Shown: positions 8,419-43,177 of the stretch, piece by piece
How positions within the stretch are numbered: position 1 is the first letter of the stretch
Layout: each line of letters begins with the position of its first letter
Notes under the pieces: model-generated
Told to the model about the DNA's origin: nothing
Database searches by the model: none
Seen by the model: only the letters and a program-made list of their open reading frames with translations
Assembly (NCBI GenBank): GCA_002708845.1
Contig: PAPI01000004.1
Location: forward strand, 248,001 to 312,000
Source: Leeuwenhoekiella sp.
GTDB taxonomy: Bacteria > Bacteroidota > Bacteroidia > Flavobacteriales > Flavobacteriaceae
Reading direction: 5' to 3'
DNA length: 64,000 bases
Program-made: the position numbers and the translations under genes

Positions 8419-9396
8419 TTAGCCTAGAAAAACCTCTTGATTGTGCCATTTTAATGCTTCGGCAGAGGGTTTGTATTTTTCGTGCTTGGGTAATCTTATT
8501 GGAGATCCACTTAGATTTAGGAGCTCTTTTGTGGATTCAGATTGAATTATTGAAGAAGAGATTTTTATCCTGTAGTTTGAGTCGATTGTTATAAGGCCTC
8601 TATCAAAAGCTCTATGTAAAGTTGGGCTTAAAGATATTCCGTTGCTGATCGTATCATCCTGACTTTGGCTAAAAGGAATTATATGACAGGCATCAACCAA
8701 TTGAAAATTATGATTCGAAATGATTTTTAGTCCTGAAATACAACACGTGTAATCATATATTTTAGGCACTGTTTTTTTGAATACACCACCCCTAACAAAT
8801 AACTCCTCTTCAAAATTAGCATCTTCAAGTTTGGCTTTAATACTATTTAATTTTAATACGTATTCGACTCTTGACTCATTTAATATTTCGTGCTCTATGA
8901 GGTTTTCTAAATATCCCTGTGCATTTATTTTAATATTCGATTTATTTCTAAAAAAGTAAGAATCTAATAGAAACTCCTTTATGATAATTCTATAAGATTG
9001 TATTTGAAGTAATTCAAATAATTCTTTATCAATTTCGGCAAAAGCAATTATTTCGATTAGCTTATAAATGCTTTTTACGCTTTTCATCTTATCAAACTTT
9101 CTTTCAAAACCCACACGAGGGATCAACCTATAGAAAGGTTCACTTTTCATATGAAAAAAAGGGAGTGCAAAATTATCGTGATGTCCAGTATCAACTAAAG
9201 CAATAAAATATTCTTTAAATCTTAATACCAATTCAGGAGTAATACCAAACCTATTACTGTTTAGAAGACCTCTTTCAGAGATGTCTATTATTGAAAGCAG
9301 GAGGATTGGTTTATGAGGAGCTTTACCAAAGCCAGGGTTAAAACCCCTATTCAATTTCTTGAAATAGTCTAAATATTTCAGTAATAACTCGTCCAT
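8419..9396 (-). CDS. HNH endonuclease, predicted restriction enzyme (COG3440-like)
   Basis: A 325-aa protein with a C-terminal HNH nuclease: after CCISGLKI comes CHIIPFS, then ISNGISLSPTLHRAFDRG, giving His238, Asn252 and His261 as likely catalytic and metal residues. The N-terminal part has the segment KAPHKPILLLSIIDI (residues 25-39). The 'HKP-LLL' pattern is shared with the N-terminal DNA-reading domains of modification-dependent HNH enzymes, including the sulfur-binding domain of ScoMcrA-type type IV restriction enzymes. That resemblance is from memory of the family and is not proof of specificity. No cognate methylase or dnd gene is adjacent. It is visibly more A+T-rich than its neighbours and sits beside a tRNA, which suggests horizontal acquisition. 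Confidence 0.85.
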   Translation of the reverse strand: MDELLLKYLDYFKKLNRGFNPGFGKAPHKPILLLSIIDISERGLLNSNRFGITPELVLRFKEYFIALVDTGHHDNFALPFFHMKSEPFYRLIPRVGFERKFDKMKSVKSIYKLIEIIAFAEIDKELFELLQIQSYRIIIKEFLLDSYFFRNKSNIKINAQGYLENLIEHEILNESRVEYVLKLNSIKAKLEDANFEEELFVRGGVFKKTVPKIYDYTCCISGLKIISNHNFQLVDACHIIPFSQSQDDTISNGISLSPTLHRAFDRGLITIDSNYRIKISSSIIQSESTKELLNLSGSPIRLPKHEKYKPSAEALKWHNQEVFLG

Positions 9397-31917: not shown

Positions 31918-31942
31918 TTCTATTATACCTGAAAAACAGTAG

Positions 31943-31970
31943 GCGATTGCGGGTGCAATCGCTTTTTTTT
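31943..31970 (+). terminator. Rho-independent terminator of the CBS gene
   Basis: GCGATTGC-GGGT-GCAATCGC perfect 8-bp stem followed by T8. Confidence 0.9.
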
Positions 31971-32204: not shown

Positions 32205-34922
32205 ATGAAAGAAAGAAATTGTCTCATACTTACACAATACAGGAATGAAGGTCAATACAATGACTTTATTGGTAAATTCTATCACTTTCCAGCAACTGAA
32301 AAAAAGAGTTATTTAAAGCAGTTTGAAAATTTACCTATTGAAATAGTCTATTACGAACCAGATAAAAAGGGCAGTGGTGAGTTTTATGGTTATGGTATAA
32401 TAAAAAAACCTCCTTTTGAGGATAAACGGGAAATTGGATATTATTTCGTTGAGATTTCTGAATATAAGCCTTTTGCTAAACCAGTCTTTTTTAAAAATGA
32501 CAAGGGTCAAATACTTGAAAAACTCTTCAATACCAAGTATTACAATTACAATAATGCAGTCCGACGTATAACCCCAGAATTGCTTGATGCTCTTTGTTTA
32601 GATGGAAGAATTCAGCTCAATTTCAAAGCAGATGCGCACCTCATTAAAGTACTTGGAGAGCAATTAATTGGTTCTGAAAAGGTAGGAATTCTTGAGCTCG
32701 TTAAAAATGCGATTGATGCAGGTGCAAGTTATTGTAGAGTAAGGATAGAAAAAATTAAAGGGATAGCACCAGTAGATGCTGACGAGTATGAATTTGGGGA
32801 CTTTGATGGCCCGGTTATAGTTATTGAAGATGATGGGGCTGGGATGAATAGAGAAATAATCGAAAATGGTTGGCTCCGTCCTGCATCTACAATTAAAACT
32901 AACGTTAAGGAAAAGTTAAAAGAAGAACGGAGAAGGGCTGAAGCATCAGGAAAACTAGGTGCTTATAACACTCTTATTGACCAGTTAAAAAGGGAAAATA
33001 AGGGTAGAATTCCATTAGGAGAAAAAGGAGTTGGGCGTTTCGCAACGCATCGTCTCGGTAGAAATCTTATTATTAAGAGTAAGCCAATAGACTCTACTTA
33101 TGAATATGTGTTAAAAATTAATTGGGATTCTTTTGATGAGGTTTCAGATGTGACAATTGACTTAGATTCAATAGGTGTGGAACTTACTCGTCAAGTTCCT
33201 AGCAGGGATTATGGCACAACTGGTTCGGGAACTCAAATAATAGTTTATGGAGGTCGAGAAGGTTTTGAGTGGGATGAAAAAAAGATCCGTGATATTAATA
33301 AATCAATTTTAAGACTAAACTCACCAAACCCTAATCCGTCAAAGATAAAAACATCCTTCCGGGCATTTGTTGATTGCCCACAAATTCCTGATTTAGATGA
33401 TAAAGAAGTCTTTGAGAGTTTTACACCAAATTTTAGTTTAGAAGCACTGGTAAGCAGAAGTGGTGTTTTAGAAGAGTATACTTTAAAGTTCTCTCCTCCT
33501 AAATCGGTGCCCCTCACTGAAGAAACTTGGACTGATAAGAATTATGATCTGAAGGCTTCTTCTCCGTATTGGCGTGATGAAAATGGGAATATTCGCAATC
33601 CAGTATGCGGAGGATTTTACATTCATCTAGATTCTTGGTACCGAAGAGCTCCGTGGATTGACGGACCTGATGCGGGAGAAATGAAGAAATACCTAGATGA
33701 ATATGGAGGAATATCCATTTATCGAGATGATATTATCATATTTCCAGCAGAATCTGGCACTAAAAACGATTGGCTCGATTTGTCCAAACGGCATATTAAA
33801 CAGGGCTTCCGTATATCTTATTATAATATAATTGGAAATATTGAGATCGAGCAATCTGAGAATATGGATCTAGTTGATAAAACGAATAGAGAGGGAATGA
33901 TCGAGAATTTGGCATTTAATGACCTATCAGTACTTGCCGAAACCATCATCCAAAATATCCTCGAAACACGGTATATCGCAAAGCGAGACGAGTATACTGA
34001 TCTTACCAAAGGATTGATTAGAGACCCAAAAGCGCTTAGTTCTATTGCAAAGCAAAATGGTCTTATTCTAGATGGAATTCAAAAAAACTATCCAATTGAG
34101 GAAGATCCTTGGAGGATATTACACCAACTAGGAGAGACAGTTGATGAACGTAAAGGCGGATTAGTTAATATAGATTCATCTATCAGAAATTTGAAAAAGA
34201 GTATTGATTTAATAGAAGAAGTTCAGGAACGTATGGCTGAACACGCTGGTTTTGGAATAGCTGCGGCTGTGTCAATCCATGAAATAACTAAAATTACAGC
34301 CAATTTTTATAATGGAATAAGCCAATTGCTTAAAACTGGGCAAGCCGATAGAATTCAACTTGAAGACTTAAAAAGTACTTCAGCCTCTCTTAAATCAGAA
34401 CTAAAAAGATTAAGTCCGTTAAGGGCAATCCGCAATGAAAACCGCAGGGAATTCAATATTGTCCAATCTGTTAAATATGCCCAAGGTGTATTCAGTAGAA
34501 AAATGAAACAAGAAGGTATTGAATTTGAATTCGATCTAAATGATGACTTTCAAGTTTATGCGAGATATTCAACTCTTAACCAAATATTAGGTAATCTTTT
34601 TGACAATAGTATTTATTGGATTCTTGCTTCTGGAAAGAAGCCGAGGAAAATAAAAGTTGATATTAATAGCAATCACCGTACATTAATTTTTTCAGATACG
34701 GGAACAGGAGTTGACGGAGCTATGAAACCATATCTATTCCAGCCTGGATACAGTATGAAAATTCCGCCAAGTGGTTTGGGTTTATATATTTGTAAGGCTT
34801 ATATGCATTCAATGGGAGGAGATATCCACGAAACAACAAACAGGGAGCGATTACCTAATTTTGAAGGTGCTCAGTTTACTATTGAGTTTGATAGGGTTCC
34901 TGAATCAAAAGAACAAGCATAA
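32205..34922 (+). CDS. Large dual-GHKL ATPase / histidine kinase with PUA-like N-terminus
   Basis: A 905-aa soluble protein. Residues 1-115 look like a PUA/EVE-type base-sensing domain (IEIVYYEPDKKGSGEFYGYG, YYFVEISEYKPF). Residues about 140-330 are an HSP90/MORC-like GHKL ATPase: N-box ELVKNAIDAGAS, G1 box EDDGAGM, lid GEKGVGRFATHRLG. A transducer-like region follows, with GGISIYRDD at about 500 and DKTNREGMIEN. The C-terminal third is a histidine-kinase core: SIHEITK with candidate phospho-His692, N-box NQILGNLFDNS (from 792), G1 DTGTG (Asp831), G2 PPSGLGLYICK. Two GHKL modules in one chain are unusual. The gene is A+T-rich, and its stop overlaps the next start (TAATG). A signalling or ATPase role in a restriction-related defence system is inferred. 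Confidence 0.85.
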   Translation: MKERNCLILTQYRNEGQYNDFIGKFYHFPATEKKSYLKQFENLPIEIVYYEPDKKGSGEFYGYGIIKKPPFEDKREIGYYFVEISEYKPFAKPVFFKNDKGQILEKLFNTKYYNYNNAVRRITPELLDALCLDGRIQLNFKADAHLIKVLGEQLIGSEKVGILELVKNAIDAGASYCRVRIEKIKGIAPVDADEYEFGDFDGPVIVIEDDGAGMNREIIENGWLRPASTIKTNVKEKLKEERRRAEASGKLGAYNTLIDQLKRENKGRIPLGEKGVGRFATHRLGRNLIIKSKPIDSTYEYVLKINWDSFDEVSDVTIDLDSIGVELTRQVPSRDYGTTGSGTQIIVYGGREGFEWDEKKIRDINKSILRLNSPNPNPSKIKTSFRAFVDCPQIPDLDDKEVFESFTPNFSLEALVSRSGVLEEYTLKFSPPKSVPLTEETWTDKNYDLKASSPYWRDENGNIRNPVCGGFYIHLDSWYRRAPWIDGPDAGEMKKYLDEYGGISIYRDDIIIFPAESGTKNDWLDLSKRHIKQGFRISYYNIIGNIEIEQSENMDLVDKTNREGMIENLAFNDLSVLAETIIQNILETRYIAKRDEYTDLTKGLIRDPKALSSIAKQNGLILDGIQKNYPIEEDPWRILHQLGETVDERKGGLVNIDSSIRNLKKSIDLIEEVQERMAEHAGFGIAAAVSIHEITKITANFYNGISQLLKTGQADRIQLEDLKSTSASLKSELKRLSPLRAIRNENRREFNIVQSVKYAQGVFSRKMKQEGIEFEFDLNDDFQVYARYSTLNQILGNLFDNSIYWILASGKKPRKIKVDINSNHRTLIFSDTGTGVDGAMKPYLFQPGYSMKIPPSGLGLYICKAYMHSMGGDIHETTNRERLPNFEGAQFTIEFDRVPESKEQA

Positions 34923-36301
34923 TGAAAAGAAAAATCTGTATTATTGACGATTCTCTGCCAGCACCAGACTACCCTGCCTTTATTGACGAAACTCAACTTC
35001 TTGATCAAGCGATTTTAAAATATTTGTGCTTTGAACACGAAAGTTGGCCTGAAGAACCACTTAAGCAGTTACTTATCGAAATATTTGAAAATCATAGTGA
35101 CTGGACGATAAGTGGATTTTTAAATCCAGATTTTTATTTTAATCATGTAGAAGAAGAAATTTATAGCCCAGAGGTAATAATATTTGATTGGGATTACACT
35201 ACATCTTCTATTGCTACTGAGGAACATCTTTTAAATATATTAAAATCTACTTATGCTGTTGTTGGTATTTACACAGGAGCAGACAAAAAGGAGGAAATTC
35301 GCGAGATATTAGCTCAGCCTGAATTCAAAACATTTTTAGATACTAGAATTCGTATGGTAGAGAAAGGTGATGTTGATTCTGTATCAAAAATATTAACTGA
35401 AGTAAATACTCGTTTTGAAAGTCATTTCTCATTCAAATTTGGGCAAGAATTAAAATTTAACGCAGTCAAGGCGCTTGACTCAATTTTGGTGGATATAGGA
35501 GAAATGTCCTTTGATGAATTTATTTGGACTTTTGGTCACGAAAGAGAGAAAGATGAACGTTCAATAACAGTAAACGAGTTTATAGAGATATTATCCGAAA
35601 AGTTCAGGAATAGTTTAGCGAATGCGGATTGGTCAGAAACAGCTTTTATAAGCTCTGAACCTGCAGTTGTTACAGAGGAGTTAGTAAGAAAATTATGGTC
35701 GTATCGTTTATATAAATCTCCGAGCGATGATCTGGTTCGGGTTGGTGATATAATATCTAGGATTAATGGTGACATAAATGAAAAGTTTCTTGTGATTTCT
35801 TCCGATTGTCATATGAATCAGTTTTGGAAGAAGAATTTTGGTTCTCTAACCCTTATACCGCTCTATGCAAATACCAAAACAAGCGGCAAGTTCCTAAATA
35901 AACTACTTACGGCGCAGAATCGTGGTAAAGTACGTAGTACAGGGGCAACATCCATAACTAACCTATCAAACTTTGATTCTTTAACGCTTATATCTAGTCT
36001 CCCAACTAAAGATGCAGAAGGTAGGGTTGGATTTACAGATTACATTGCTTTCCCTCGATCGGTTTTTTCAATCGATGTAAAAAAACCTGAATTAGAGGAT
36101 CATCAAGTTAGACTACAAGCATTACACTACTCTCATATTGAAGACTTCTGCGGAGAAGGTAGGCTAAGTCTTAATGAACCATTCCGAAGCCCATTAATAC
36201 AATACTGTATAAATGCAGTTACGGGATACGGCGCTCCCGACTACCCGAGTGAACTTCAGAATTCAATTAAAGACAGATTTAATGAAAACTTTACAGCTTA
36301 A
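34922..36301 (+). CDS. Atypical receiver-domain protein with unknown C-terminal half
   Basis: A 459-aa protein. Its first 150 residues follow the receiver (CheY-like) plan with insertions: acidic pair ICIIDDS (Asp9, Asp10), phospho-acceptor candidate Asp89 in VIIFDWDY, Thr118 in VVGIYTGAD and Lys148 in RMVEKGD. Residues 160-459 match no family I know; no DNA-binding HTH or nuclease motif is visible. It overlaps the kinase gene by 1 bp and the methyltransferase gene by 20 bp, so the three are translated as a unit. The likely role is phospho-acceptor for the histidine-kinase module upstream, with the C-terminal half as output. Confidence 0.75.
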   Translation: MKRKICIIDDSLPAPDYPAFIDETQLLDQAILKYLCFEHESWPEEPLKQLLIEIFENHSDWTISGFLNPDFYFNHVEEEIYSPEVIIFDWDYTTSSIATEEHLLNILKSTYAVVGIYTGADKKEEIREILAQPEFKTFLDTRIRMVEKGDVDSVSKILTEVNTRFESHFSFKFGQELKFNAVKALDSILVDIGEMSFDEFIWTFGHEREKDERSITVNEFIEILSEKFRNSLANADWSETAFISSEPAVVTEELVRKLWSYRLYKSPSDDLVRVGDIISRINGDINEKFLVISSDCHMNQFWKKNFGSLTLIPLYANTKTSGKFLNKLLTAQNRGKVRSTGATSITNLSNFDSLTLISSLPTKDAEGRVGFTDYIAFPRSVFSIDVKKPELEDHQVRLQALHYSHIEDFCGEGRLSLNEPFRSPLIQYCINAVTGYGAPDYPSELQNSIKDRFNENFTA

Positions 36302-37313
36302 TTCCATTGACTTATTTGCTGGAGCAGGAGGTCTGACAGTAGGGATGCATAAGGCTGGCTTTAAAACAAAAGCAGCGGTAGAAATAGAGCCTGCTGCAGT
36401 AAAGGCCTATCAAATGAATCATCCAGACTCAAAGGTTTTCCAAAATAATATTAAGAATATTGATATTAGTGAAATCAAGAAAATACTTGGTGATCAGCAA
36501 TTACACCTGTTAGCGGGGTGCCCACCTTGTCAGGGCTTTTCATCCATTCGAAGACTAAATAAAAGGCAAAGTGTACGTGACGACAGAAACAGCCTTGTCT
36601 TAGAATATTTAAGATTTGTAAAAGAATTGAAACCGTTAACAATAATGATGGAAAATGTACCTGGGCTAATTAACTACTATCTGTTTAAAAATGTCGTAAA
36701 GGAGCTTAAAGAGATAGGCTACAATCCTAAAGTTGAAATAGTCAATGTAAAGGATTACGGTGTACCTCAAAGGCGTAAAAGATTAGTCATGGTAGGCTCT
36801 TTATTAGGGAATGTGGAGGTTTCAAAAGTTAATGTTCCAAAAGTTACTGTGCGTGAGGCGATAGGAAGTTTGAAAAGTATAGAAGAGACTTCCGATCCAA
36901 CACATAAAATCGTAGCAAATCACACTCCGAGAATTCTAGAAATGATCAATAAAATCCCTAAAAATGGGGGTAGTAGAAAAGATCTGCCAGACAAATACAT
37001 TCTTAAATGTCACAAAAAGGAAAATGTTGGCTTTAATGACGTTTATGGTAGGTTGAAATGGGATGATTATTCTTCAACCATTACTGGTGGTTGCTTAAAT
37101 CCGTCTAAAGGTCGATTTTTACACCCCGAAGAAGATAGATGTATTACAGCTAGAGAGGCAGCATTAATACAAACATTTCCAGTAGATTATAAATTTCCAG
37201 AAGATGTTAATAAAACCGCTCTTGCTCTTTTAATTGGAAACGCCTTACCTCCTGAATTTAGTTACTATCAATCCTTAAATATTAGAAATCATATAATTGA
37301 GCATTTGAGTTAA
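36282..37313 (+). CDS. C5-cytosine DNA methyltransferase
   Basis: A 343-aa enzyme that methylates cytosine at C5 in a specific DNA sequence. The motifs are in canonical order: I DLFAGAGGLTVG (residues 10-21), IV GCPPCQGFS with nucleophile Cys83, VI MMENVPGL with Glu124, VIII QRRKR, X LIGNALPP. The target-recognition region (about 190-290) is short. The ATG at 36282 is preferred; an upstream in-frame ATG lies deep in the previous gene. No dedicated restriction endonuclease is adjacent. Its stop overlaps, tail to tail, the stop of the CDP-alcohol phosphatidyltransferase gene by 4 bp. Confidence 0.95.
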   Translation: MKTLQLNSIDLFAGAGGLTVGMHKAGFKTKAAVEIEPAAVKAYQMNHPDSKVFQNNIKNIDISEIKKILGDQQLHLLAGCPPCQGFSSIRRLNKRQSVRDDRNSLVLEYLRFVKELKPLTIMMENVPGLINYYLFKNVVKELKEIGYNPKVEIVNVKDYGVPQRRKRLVMVGSLLGNVEVSKVNVPKVTVREAIGSLKSIEETSDPTHKIVANHTPRILEMINKIPKNGGSRKDLPDKYILKCHKKENVGFNDVYGRLKWDDYSSTITGGCLNPSKGRFLHPEEDRCITAREAALIQTFPVDYKFPEDVNKTALALLIGNALPPEFSYYQSLNIRNHIIEHLS

Positions 37314-38089
37314 TATAATTCTAAGGATTTAATCACCTTCCTCAACCCAATAAAAACCGGAATCAACACCGTCATTCCGAGTAACACCGGAATGATAAAG
37401 TCCTCCAATCCCGTTGCCAGTAAAATACTTATAAGCAAGAGCTGAAATCCCAGTCCAAATACAGAGACCAAGGTCATAAACCAGCCCGGTAGGTGGTCAA
37501 TCTTTACAGCGTTGGGGTCCAGGCGGTAAATGATTTTATCAAAACTGCTGTAGAGCAGCGTGTACAGGAAGTACATCGCATTTACGGTAATCTGGCTTTC
37601 ACCGGCAAGCGCCAGCGGCCTGGTGTTTTCAAAGATTCGGCTGGTAGTATCACCGTTGTGACGGTTGCGTAGAATTACGTAGTAATAATTATACAATGTT
37701 CCTTGTAGTTGTAGGCCAATAAAAGCCAGAAAAGCGAGCCATAAAGCCGTTTCTGTTGAAAGTGCTATTACTGTAAGAATGATAAAATTTAGAATGATAT
37801 CTGCTACGGAGTCGTAATACCTGCCGGTATACGAAGGCGTATTTTTAAGACGTGCGAGTTCGCCATCTGCAGCATCTATAACCGACTTGAGTATGAGCAG
37901 CAGCGCTGCGCTTTTATAATGTCCGTAGCCAATACAGGTAACAGCCAGCAAACCGGCAACAATAAAGGCTGTTGTAAGGTGAATCGGTGTACAGGAGGTA
38001 TTTTTAAATCGCGACGCAATTGATCTTCCTGCGGTTCTTCCATAATCGGAAAGATCTGTAAATGCATATTGTGGTGGGAGTTTAGACAT
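37310..38089 (-). CDS. CDP-alcohol phosphatidyltransferase family protein
   Basis: A 259-aa membrane enzyme. The family motif D-x2-DG-x2-AR-x8-G-x3-D-x3-D is complete in DAADGELARLKNTPSYTG followed by RYYDSVAD. The enzyme joins an alcohol head group to a CDP-activated lipid (or the reverse) in phospholipid synthesis; the head group cannot be told. It ends within the methyltransferase stop region and starts 4 bp after the DUF4375 gene. Confidence 0.92.
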   Translation of the reverse strand: MSKLPPQYAFTDLSDYGRTAGRSIASRFKNTSCTPIHLTTAFIVAGLLAVTCIGYGHYKSAALLLILKSVIDAADGELARLKNTPSYTGRYYDSVADIILNFIILTVIALSTETALWLAFLAFIGLQLQGTLYNYYYVILRNRHNGDTTSRIFENTRPLALAGESQITVNAMYFLYTLLYSSFDKIIYRLDPNAVKIDHLPGWFMTLVSVFGLGFQLLLISILLATGLEDFIIPVLLGMTVLIPVFIGLRKVIKSLELY

Positions 38090-41268: not shown

Positions 41269-41289
41269 TCAAGCAAAACAGATAAAGCT

Positions 41290-42195
41290 ATGTTTAACAA
41301 AGAAGTAAGTTCGATTTTAGATTTAATTAAAGCCTTTCCAGACGAGCAGTCTTGTATTGATCATTTAGAGCTTCTTAGATGGAACGGTAACGTAGTTAGT
41401 CCGTTTGATCCTACTTCTAAAGTATATAACTGTAAAGGTAATCGCTACAAGTGTAAGAATACAGGTAAATACTTCAACGTTAAGACAAACACGCTTTTTG
41501 ACAATACTAAAATGGACTTGCAAAAATGGTTCTTAGCCATTTGGTTAGTCACTTCTCATAAAAAAGGTATTTCTTCACTACAATTAGGAAGAGACTTGGA
41601 TATAACTCAAAAGTCTGCATGGTTTATGCTACAAAGAATCCGTAATTGTTTTGGAATAAGCAACGATGATCAACTAGATAATGAAGTTGAAGCTGACGAA
41701 ACTTTCGTTGGTGGTAAAGACAAAAACAGACACGTAAATAAGAAGATCAAAAACGGTGGTTCTGAAAAAACTCCTGTTGTTGGTATGGTTGAAAGAGGTG
41801 GTAATGTAAAAGCCAAAGCCATCCCTAACACTACTTATCAAACATTATCTAAAGAACTTATATTGAATGTAAAATCAGGCGCGAAACTCTATACTGATGA
41901 ATATGTGTCTTACAAAGGTATGGGACGTGTTTATGACCACAAAGTTGTAAAGCATAGTTCACACCAGTACGTTAATGGTAGAGTACATACAAACACGATA
42001 GAGGGCTTTTGGTCTATTCTAAAACGTGGTATCTTTGGAATATACCATTTTACATCTAAAAAGCATTTACAGCTTTACGTTGATGAATTTGTATTTAGAT
42101 ACAATACTCGTAAGGGTTCAGAAAATACTAGATTTAATTTGTTACTTGCAAATACTGAAAGACGTTTAACTTATAAAGAATTAATTAATGACTAA
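41290..42195 (+). CDS. IS1595-family transposase
   Basis: A 301-aa transposase. The N-terminus has a degenerate zinc-ribbon-like segment (YNCKGNRYKCKNTGKYFNVK), then a helix-turn-helix (SSLQLGRDLDITQKSAWFML). The catalytic DDE-type core is VEADETFVGG (Asp136), LYTDEYVSY (Asp203) and HTNTIEGFWSILKRGI (Asn235/Glu238). The ATG at 41290 was chosen over a TTG at 41266 because the TTG lies in the -7 element. It overlaps the KilA-N gene by 8 bp. The frame is intact, so the element may be active. Confidence 0.93.
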   Translation: MFNKEVSSILDLIKAFPDEQSCIDHLELLRWNGNVVSPFDPTSKVYNCKGNRYKCKNTGKYFNVKTNTLFDNTKMDLQKWFLAIWLVTSHKKGISSLQLGRDLDITQKSAWFMLQRIRNCFGISNDDQLDNEVEADETFVGGKDKNRHVNKKIKNGGSEKTPVVGMVERGGNVKAKAIPNTTYQTLSKELILNVKSGAKLYTDEYVSYKGMGRVYDHKVVKHSSHQYVNGRVHTNTIEGFWSILKRGIFGIYHFTSKKHLQLYVDEFVFRYNTRKGSENTRFNLLLANTERRLTYKELIND

Positions 42196-43177
42196 AACTA
42201 AAAAATTGATTGTAGATGAATTGGAAATATCCTTAACTAAAGTTAAGGATGAAGATTACATTTGCTTGACAGATATGATTAAGGCTAAGGATGGTGATTT
42301 CTTTATAAGTGATTGGCTTAGAAACATTAACACGTTAGATTATTTAGCTGCTTGGGAAAACTTAAATAATCCCGATTTTAATTATGGCGAATTCGCCATA
42401 ATTAGAAGTGAGTCTGGGGGAAATAGCTATAAGATAAGTGTAAAAGAATGGGTTAGCAGAACTAATGCTATAGGTATAACCGCTAAGACAGGTAGATACG
42501 GAGGAACTTACGCAAATGTAGATATTGCTTTTAATTTCGGAATGTGGATTAGTCCAGAGTTTCAGCTTTATATTGTAACGGAATATAAAAGACTCAAAGA
42601 AATTGAGAGCAACCAATTAAACCTTGAATGGGATGTTAGGCGGTTAATGACAAAAATAAATTATGGGCTTCATACAGACGCAGTTCAAAAACATATCATA
42701 CCTAATAGTAAGATGTCTCAAAAGAATCAATGGATTGAATACGCAAATGAAGCAGATTTATTGAATGTAGCATTATATGGATATACAGCGAAAGAATGGA
42801 AACAATCAAATCCTGAACTTTCATTAAAAGGTAAAAATATGAGGGATTTTTCCAGTATTACCGATTTATTAATAATGAGTAATTTAGAATCTCTTAATGC
42901 TGAACTTATAAAAAATAAGTTAAGTAAAGAACAAAGGTTTCATTATTTAAAAAAACTAGCTCTTGAACAAAGGGATCAGTTCAATAAGGTGGACATGATA
43001 AAATCTATAAAAAGGAAAGATGAAACCACATATGTTGAAATAGGCAATTTAACACCAGAAGAAATAGAAGAAGAATCTAAAAAAGATATTCTAGAGGCTA
43101 ATAAGAGAAATTTATCAAATTTCAATCAAAAACTAAAAAAAGGATTAAACTATAACCCTAAGGAAGAGGATAATTAA
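42188..43177 (+). CDS. KilA-N domain protein, passenger gene of the IS element
   Basis: A 329-aa protein. The KilA-N DNA-binding domain covers about residues 15-135 (YICLTDMIKAKDGDFFISDWL to ANVDIAFNFGMWISPEFQLY), as in phage antirepressors. The rest is helical and charged (LLNVALYGYTAKEWKQSNPEL, then a Lys/Glu-rich tail). It starts inside the transposase 3' end and is within the terminal repeats, so it travels with the element. It may control transposition or the small opposite gene; no prophage genes are near. A+T-rich. Confidence 0.88.
   Translation: MTKTKKLIVDELEISLTKVKDEDYICLTDMIKAKDGDFFISDWLRNINTLDYLAAWENLNNPDFNYGEFAIIRSESGGNSYKISVKEWVSRTNAIGITAKTGRYGGTYANVDIAFNFGMWISPEFQLYIVTEYKRLKEIESNQLNLEWDVRRLMTKINYGLHTDAVQKHIIPNSKMSQKNQWIEYANEADLLNVALYGYTAKEWKQSNPELSLKGKNMRDFSSITDLLIMSNLESLNAELIKNKLSKEQRFHYLKKLALEQRDQFNKVDMIKSIKRKDETTYVEIGNLTPEEIEEESKKDILEANKRNLSNFNQKLKKGLNYNPKEEDN

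Follow-up and report, generated by a model that had tools for sequence, protein, structure and literature searches.

The analyzed DNA, a window of 64,000 nucleotides, carries on its forward (+) strand three genes with overlapping ends: gene 1 (32205–34922, an ORF of 905 aa in the ORF listing), gene 2 (34922–36301, likewise listed, 459 aa) and gene 3 (36282–37313, 343 aa when read from the ATG at 36282; its ORF is listed from 36213). The overlap is 1 bp between genes 1 and 2 and 20 bp between genes 2 and 3, and the GC content of the three-gene island is 0.358 vs 0.411 for the window, in agreement with the preliminary description of three overlapping genes in an A+T-rich island. That description also placed the island between a terminator and a convergent gene. 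The latter is a CDP-alcohol phosphatidyltransferase gene (37310–38089), which is the downstream neighbor and runs convergently to the operon. On the other side a terminator-like hairpin with a T-run (31941–31970, + strand; stem 31941–31964, 10 pairs) is present 3' of a CBS gene, although the hairpin scan alone (4 such sites in the region vs 3.3 in shuffles) proves no terminator.

The three products had been described as a dual-GHKL ATPase/histidine kinase, a receiver-like protein with an unassigned C-terminal half and a C5-cytosine methyltransferase, with no nuclease present. Our domain analyses bear out these assignments, except that the C-terminal half, to which Pfam indeed assigns no family, now has a predicted MazF-like fold. 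In gene 1, Pfam identified a HATPase_c_3 domain of the MORC-type GHKL ATPases (residues 161–338, after an N-terminal region; 1.2e-13) and a HATPase_c domain (residues 790–896; 5.1e-18), and the His-Glu of the histidine kinase part, which includes His692 (codon 34278–34280), is kept in 21/21 relatives. Gene 3 encodes a C5-cytosine DNA methyltransferase (Pfam DNA_methylase, 1.5e-63), the sole C5 methyltransferase found in its genome, and its motifs are intact, as are those of the kinase and the receiver. The receiver part of gene 2 (residues 1–165, 34922–35416) has Asp9, Asp10, the acceptor Asp89 and Lys148; its acidic residues are conserved in 21/21 and 20/21 relatives, the phospho-acceptor aspartate in 21/21 and the lysine in 20/21. 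The N-terminal part of the predicted model resembles receiver structures and the profile of a 16-sequence gene 2 family matches a PDB receiver at 6.4e-9; the sole match to gene 2 in Pfam was a sub-threshold DUF (0.073).

The predicted MazF-like fold lies in an output domain at approximately residues 252–434 of gene 2 (35675–36223) and comes from a single predicted domain model. When that model was compared with the PDB, matches 1–12 were all MazF with probabilities of 0.87–1.00, followed by match 13 at 0.05; the best E value was 1.1e-3, the TM scores were 0.52–0.61 by target length and the rmsd 6.7–9.2. Against a viral library, match 2 (0.97) was an endoribonuclease. None of the 16 gene 2 family members matched a Pfam toxin family, including PF02452, at E ≤ 0.05, PDB sequence-profile searches with four alignments (A4, A5, A6 and A10) returned nothing above chance, and the gene 2 profile did not match the one PemK gene compared (from L005). 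A MazF profile, built in both comparisons from 6 of 30 MazF loci, aligned with A10 as expected, with the GDI strand and the strand after it in register, and gave P values of 0.055 and 0.078 in two runs, compared with 0.11–0.93 for unrelated alignments and 0.47–0.54 for a reversed MazF alignment. The score of that profile was reached by 0/60 column shuffles for A10 and 5/60 for the wider family. Gene 2 differs from MazF/PemK in having no sequence-level match, in its invariant cysteine motif (Cys296, codon 35807–35809, one of several conserved residues in the family alignment) and in the fusion of its output to a receiver, whereas MazF pairs with a MazE antitoxin. The catalytic residues of MazF are an arginine and a threonine, and by eye these seem to have no counterpart in the gene 2 output domain.

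No cognate restriction endonuclease was identified in the operon, as Pfam finds no nuclease family among the three genes. It could be argued that gene 2 is itself the endonuclease of a type II restriction-modification system, and hence a new type of nuclease, since it sits where the endonuclease would be and Cys296 and the other conserved residues could form an active site; in addition, one related locus (L069) has an EcoO109I-type endonuclease nearby. We consider this very unlikely, as gene 2 matched no DNA-nuclease family or structure in Pfam, PDB profile or model searches, and a plain endonuclease would need no kinase.

The three-gene set is an insertion, because three same-genus genomes have the flanking genes and not the set. 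The inserted segment starts to the right of the hairpin at 31941–31970, and the empty site of L148 has the same hairpin motif after its CBS gene. The kinase was absent from the 12 same-genus genomes searched, apart from one distant relative with 26% identity. It has relatives of 50–84% identity in several phyla. Among 395 Bacteroidota genomes, a plain search with gene 2 gave a match in four, namely the genome it comes from and three with weak, partial matches; plasmids, phages and viral contigs gave none. Gene 2 evolves too fast for such a search, so relatives were sought via the kinase, with loci gathered by kinase similarity alone. Co-occurrence of the three families in other genomes, which the preliminary description had made its check, was found. 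In all 18 complete loci of the 50–84% relatives the receiver gene adjoins the kinase, and in 17 of them a methyltransferase lies within three genes of it; in the remaining one (L074) it is ~4.5 kb away. Vsr is encoded near 7/18 relatives, which fits a genuine m5C mark. Of the 84 genes for such kinases, 76 are closely followed by a gene on their own strand and 50 have a C5 methyltransferase within four genes, whereas any C5 methyltransferase was found in 43 of 99 Bacteroidota genomes. A scan of viral contigs yielded 0 loci with a narrow kinase alignment and 28 with a wider one. Together, these results support a three-gene unit that is real, inserted and recurrent.

A mobile and patchy distribution, along with the occurrence of gene 1 relatives on plasmids (72 of 72,556 records) and the predicted MazF-like output, is also what would be seen if the unit were an addiction module resembling a toxin-antitoxin pair. 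The methyltransferase would then quiet the kinase, loss of the module would set the MazF-like domain loose to kill or arrest the cell, and any phage defense would be incidental. This explanation seems rather improbable to us: Pfam identified no MazE-like partner among the operon's genes, and defense explains the same evidence equally.

Sister kinase operons encode a short receiver together with either a 175-aa protein or, in the next gene, an HNH or metallo-beta-lactamase-fold protein. Six of nine available genes after the short receiver were scanned, of which four were HNH and two had the metallo-beta-lactamase fold, and the kinase tree contains one clean effector swap (97/98). Since other genes occupy the output place in these operons, kinase and receiver look like a shared trigger to which different effectors can be coupled. 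The 175-aa protein was considered as a split-off C-terminal half of gene 2, but although the lengths sum, there is no match between the two profiles (P 0.11). The effector-like genes also bear on a more conventional explanation, that the operon is a cytoplasmic two-component regulator which tunes how strongly a solitary methyltransferase is expressed or how active it is, as an epigenetic switch with neither killing nor restriction. Two-component pairs usually regulate, and the window operon has no nuclease domain by Pfam. However, HNH or metallo-beta-lactamase-fold genes adjoining the receiver would be superfluous for regulation alone, nine long-receiver members have no DNA-binding output domain by Pfam, and the output model resembles MazF. 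We therefore regard regulation alone as unlikely, even though control of restriction-modification systems has been proposed for a related association (PMC8011034).

That paper, from 2021, describes kinases of the HATPase_c_3/HEF_HK kind that have Response_reg_2 proteins as partners and C5 methyltransferases and Vsr as neighbors, and its available text gives the association no tested function (PMC8011034). The preliminary description had matched the set to no named system. This stands to the extent that genes 1 and 2 have no match in PADLOC-DB 2.0.0, but the kinase/receiver/C5-methyltransferase/Vsr association has been known since 2021 and is not new in kind. As in the HEF_HK (PF19191)/Response_reg_2 (PF19192) pair, the window kinase has HATPase_c_3 on its N side, a His-Glu helix and HATPase_c on its C side, and it adjoins a divergent receiver with a C5 methyltransferase, often with Vsr, nearby. 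Judged by their sequences, the window proteins are a divergent branch of this association, because they match neither family: PF19191 had no match in the window kinase at E ≤ 1, and PF19192 had none in gene 2 or elsewhere in its genome. A distant kinase relative on an Agrobacterium plasmid matched PF19191 below the cut-off (0.0039) and three of nine close gene 2 family members matched PF19192 (best E 0.0019). The methyltransferase is downstream in most of the window branch, as opposed to directly upstream in the published pair, and an output fold is predicted for the window branch where the available text gives none (PMC8011034). In the literature searched, HEF_HK or Response_reg_2 is named in two papers, one of them that of 2021, and no description of a MazF-like output in these proteins was found.

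Other known systems share parts of this arrangement. In MORC/paraMORC restriction operons (PMC2292703, 2008), a HATPase_c_3-type GHKL ATPase is likewise found beside a cytosine methylase and Vsr, and a minority of those operons are without a helicase; the window operon has neither a helicase nor a PD-(D/E)XK gene by Pfam, and adds a histidine kinase part and a receiver. It resembles type II restriction-modification in having a DNA methyltransferase (gene 3), but no cognate endonuclease family accompanies it. Detocs is a two-component phage defense system in which a kinase signals to a receiver bearing the effector, and the window operon would share this logic. The Detocs effector is PNP, according to PMC10952713, whereas the window operon has no purine nucleoside phosphorylase domain by Pfam and its set includes a methyltransferase. 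When PADLOC was applied to ten relatives, all four distant-type kinases weakly matched REase_II via their GHKL part (1.4e-10 to 7.3e-7), one of them also matched the candidate model PDC-M43B (2.4e-4), and the receiver of one relative matched PDC-M60B (3.5e-4). These matches probably reflect shared domains and not the same system.

We give an even chance to the operon being a horizontally moved, restriction-like defense or addiction module with an effector under the control of a phosphorelay, the defense role itself being what we infer. As part of that, the best reading is that methylation is paired with a phosphorelay in place of a recognizable sequence-specific endonuclease. The methyltransferase would mark self, and the GHKL part of gene 1, perhaps as a DNA clamp, would report DNA that is foreign, damaged or lacking the mark. 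The kinase would then autophosphorylate at His692 and pass the phosphate to Asp89 of gene 2, whose receiver would free or pair the MazF-like output domain. That domain might bring the infected cell to a halt, and the simplest way would be to cut or bind RNA. More tentatively, we suggest as a possible general form a signal-transduction type of restriction, in which a GHKL-clamp kinase reads DNA methylation or integrity, a phosphorelay unleashes a receiver-fused MazF-fold effector, and effectors are exchanged among lineages. If true, this would be a restriction logic, plasmid-borne and present in several phyla, without a PADLOC-DB 2.0.0 label for genes 1 and 2. What is new here is the predicted MazF-like output on the receiver protein and the change of effector in related kinase operons, as the published association had, in the available text, neither an output domain nor a mechanism (PMC8011034). 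Together with the nuclease-type sister genes, the MazF-like output turns a correlation into a direct hypothesis, that His-Asp phosphotransfer links methylation-based self-recognition to an effector.

A figure legend in the DefensePredictor paper (PMC13092281) lists HATPase and REC among the domains of predicted, untested systems, which may or may not include this one. Lastly, an HNH_2 gene elsewhere in the window (8419–9396) was considered as the missing nuclease, which is unsupported, the gene being 23 kb distant; it has only its C-terminal half in common with the HNH_2 genes beside relatives, at ~30% identity.

The three genes of the island, all on the plus strand, encode a 905-residue dual-GHKL histidine kinase (gene 1, 32205–34922), a 459-residue receiver protein with an output domain (gene 2, 34922–36301) and a 343-residue C5-cytosine methyltransferase (gene 3, 36282–37313), and form a set with a recurring gene content that is co-inherited and retains its switch residues. 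The layout in the preliminary description was borne out: the ORFs overlap by 1 and 20 bp, a terminator-like hairpin lies to the left (31941–31964), the right-hand neighbor (37310–38089) is convergent, and GC content is 0.358 versus 0.411 for the window. Pfam searches identified both HATPase_c_3 and HATPase_c in gene 1 and a C5 methyltransferase in gene 3, the only such match in the source genome, while Vsr had no match in that genome and gene 2 no Pfam domain above cut-off.

The three families also co-occur outside this genome, a check proposed in the preliminary description. Scanning a one-per-species genome collection with the kinase alignment gave 22 loci (kinase identity 50–84% in 20), which include Bacteroidota, Chlorobiota, Planctomycetota, Nitrospirota, one alphaproteobacterium and one Desulfovibrio; the contigs of L076, L082 and L084 had already been recovered by another search as G141, G016 and G200. 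With L084 and L085 interrupted by contig ends, 18 complete loci were counted, all with a receiver gene directly after the kinase, 17 with the methyltransferase family within three genes (it lies ~4.5 kb further on in the exception, L074), and seven with Vsr nearby. Since the scan was based on two short peptide patterns, the family extends beyond the loci given here. In addition, L133 and L136, contigs of the IMG/VR viral collection, carry window-type sets of kinase, long receiver, methyltransferase and Vsr. An EcoO109I-type restriction endonuclease gene lies two genes beyond the methyltransferase of one locus (L069, 12460–13176).

In 21 relatives, the N-box, G1 and G2 motifs were found in 21, 18 and 21 first GHKL domains and in 21, 16 and 20 second ones, with misses possibly stemming from strict patterns, and the kinase His-Glu was kept in all. 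Receiver residues were also conserved (Asp9 and acceptor Asp89 in 21; Asp10 and Lys148 in 20). A 16-member gene 2 family profile matched a response regulator at 6.4e-9, with CheY-type receivers ranking lower, and the full-length model (pLDDT 76.8, pTM 0.61) matched many receiver structures (E of 2.6e-3 and weaker, TM at most 0.71 by target length). Its first two matches, to mitofusin at low TM, were disregarded.

Residues ~252–434 of gene 2 contain an invariant Cys and Gly common to receivers adjoining distant kinases, the Cys being kept in 11/11 long-receiver members. When the output domain was modeled by itself, with 16 sequences as input (pLDDT 78.9, pTM 0.73), PDB matches 1–12 (probability 0.87–1.00, E 1.1e-3 to 0.098) were all MazF proteins of Mycobacterium, E. 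coli or Deinococcus, and match 13 was unrelated (0.05); in a viral library the first match was an uncharacterized protein (0.63) and the second an endoribonuclease (0.97). As sequence comparison gave no firm match to MazF, our claim is limited to a predicted MazF-like fold and does not extend to MazF activity.

Long receivers (434–524 residues) homologous to gene 2 occur in eight of the 18 loci, the window, L133 and L136, and the other ten loci have a short receiver (281–299 residues) followed by a 173–181-residue protein, which stands in this sister branch in place of the MazF-like domain. These ten form one side of a single branch of the 22-row kinase tree (support 97/98; L085 unclassed, L133 a long branch of unsure placement), so one exchange explains them. 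The 173–181-residue family (L082, 10597–11124; L071, 6060–6581; eight more), a candidate effector, had no match in Pfam or PDB and conserves CHTN, GGE and SxRxG-type motifs. Bacteroidota rows need four changes, at least three forced by starred branches, and transfer between phyla is therefore likely, albeit not proved.

A comparable exchange may exist beside distant kinases. Among 84 wider-family kinase genes of at least 600 residues (duplicates L076, L082, L084, L088 and L138 removed, short-flank copies excluded), ten distant ones are followed by a short receiver of 209–228 residues. The next gene was available for nine, of which the six scanned for families encode HNH (L009, L126, L128, L135) or metallo-beta-lactamase-fold proteins (L124, L060); by eye, L131 appears HNH-like and L127 and L130 metallo-beta-lactamase-like. 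Such pairs appear to be the same trigger with its effector as a separate gene. Four other scanned genes, adjoining longer receivers or in the receiver position of L006, gave no family match. L041, L071, L077, L109, L112 and L114 have HNH genes nearby as well.

Across the 84, a same-strand downstream gene begins at −80 to +60 bp in 76, Vsr is present in 20, and a C5 methyltransferase lies within four genes in 50, or in 75 if proteins with a loose, merely suggestive [DNS]PP[YFW] motif are counted; for comparison, the base rate of any C5 methyltransferase is 43/99 Bacteroidota genomes. Among 72,556 plasmid records, 72 carry weak relatives of gene 1. Eight plasmid stretches were inspected, and in these the gene directly after seven kinases is annotated as hypothetical or as a response regulator. 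Annotated methyltransferases of one type or another lie no more than three genes away in L003, L004, L005, L008 and L009, and none lies there in L002, L006 or L007.

The set had been proposed as a new defense system, a claim that stands in part. The association itself is already described in PMC8011034, the available text of which reports a kinase/receiver pair (HEF_HK and Response_reg_2) with 91.6% linkage in 644 regions, together with C5 methyltransferases and Vsr, and leaves its function without experiment. Response_reg_2 was above cut-off in 8/395 Bacteroidota genomes, and all eight stretches (L107–L114) have a C5 methyltransferase immediately upstream of the kinase. Neither Pfam model captures the window set, a divergent branch that was therefore classed as a variant that would work like the published family rather than a member of it. 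The nature of the sensed signal, the phosphotransfer, the action of the effector and the role in defense are inferred; defense and addiction are indistinguishable by sequence.

Right-hand neighbor matches were found in three (L147, L148, L149) of 12 same-genus genomes and not in nine, and in all three the M28 peptidase gene is still followed by those for CBS, CDP-alcohol transferase and DMP19, without the island. The empty site is a 145-bp gap in L148, ~100 bp separates the aligned parts in L149, and L147 has 1.66 kb of different A+T-rich small ORFs instead. A close gene 1 kinase is absent from all 12, and one has a distant relative (26% identity). The site is a possible insertion hot spot. 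A+T-rich insertions of other kinds lie at or near it (L147, 5055–6720; L148, 7645–9728). A KilA-N domain gene overlapped by an IS1595-type transposase gene (41278–43177, plus strand) forms a second A+T-rich, mobile-looking patch close to the island. Elsewhere in the window, a lone HNH_2 endonuclease gene (8419–9396, minus strand; E 1.5e-12) lies in an A+T-rich patch (GC 0.333), and its C-terminal half is similar to HNH_2 genes adjoining relatives of the operon.
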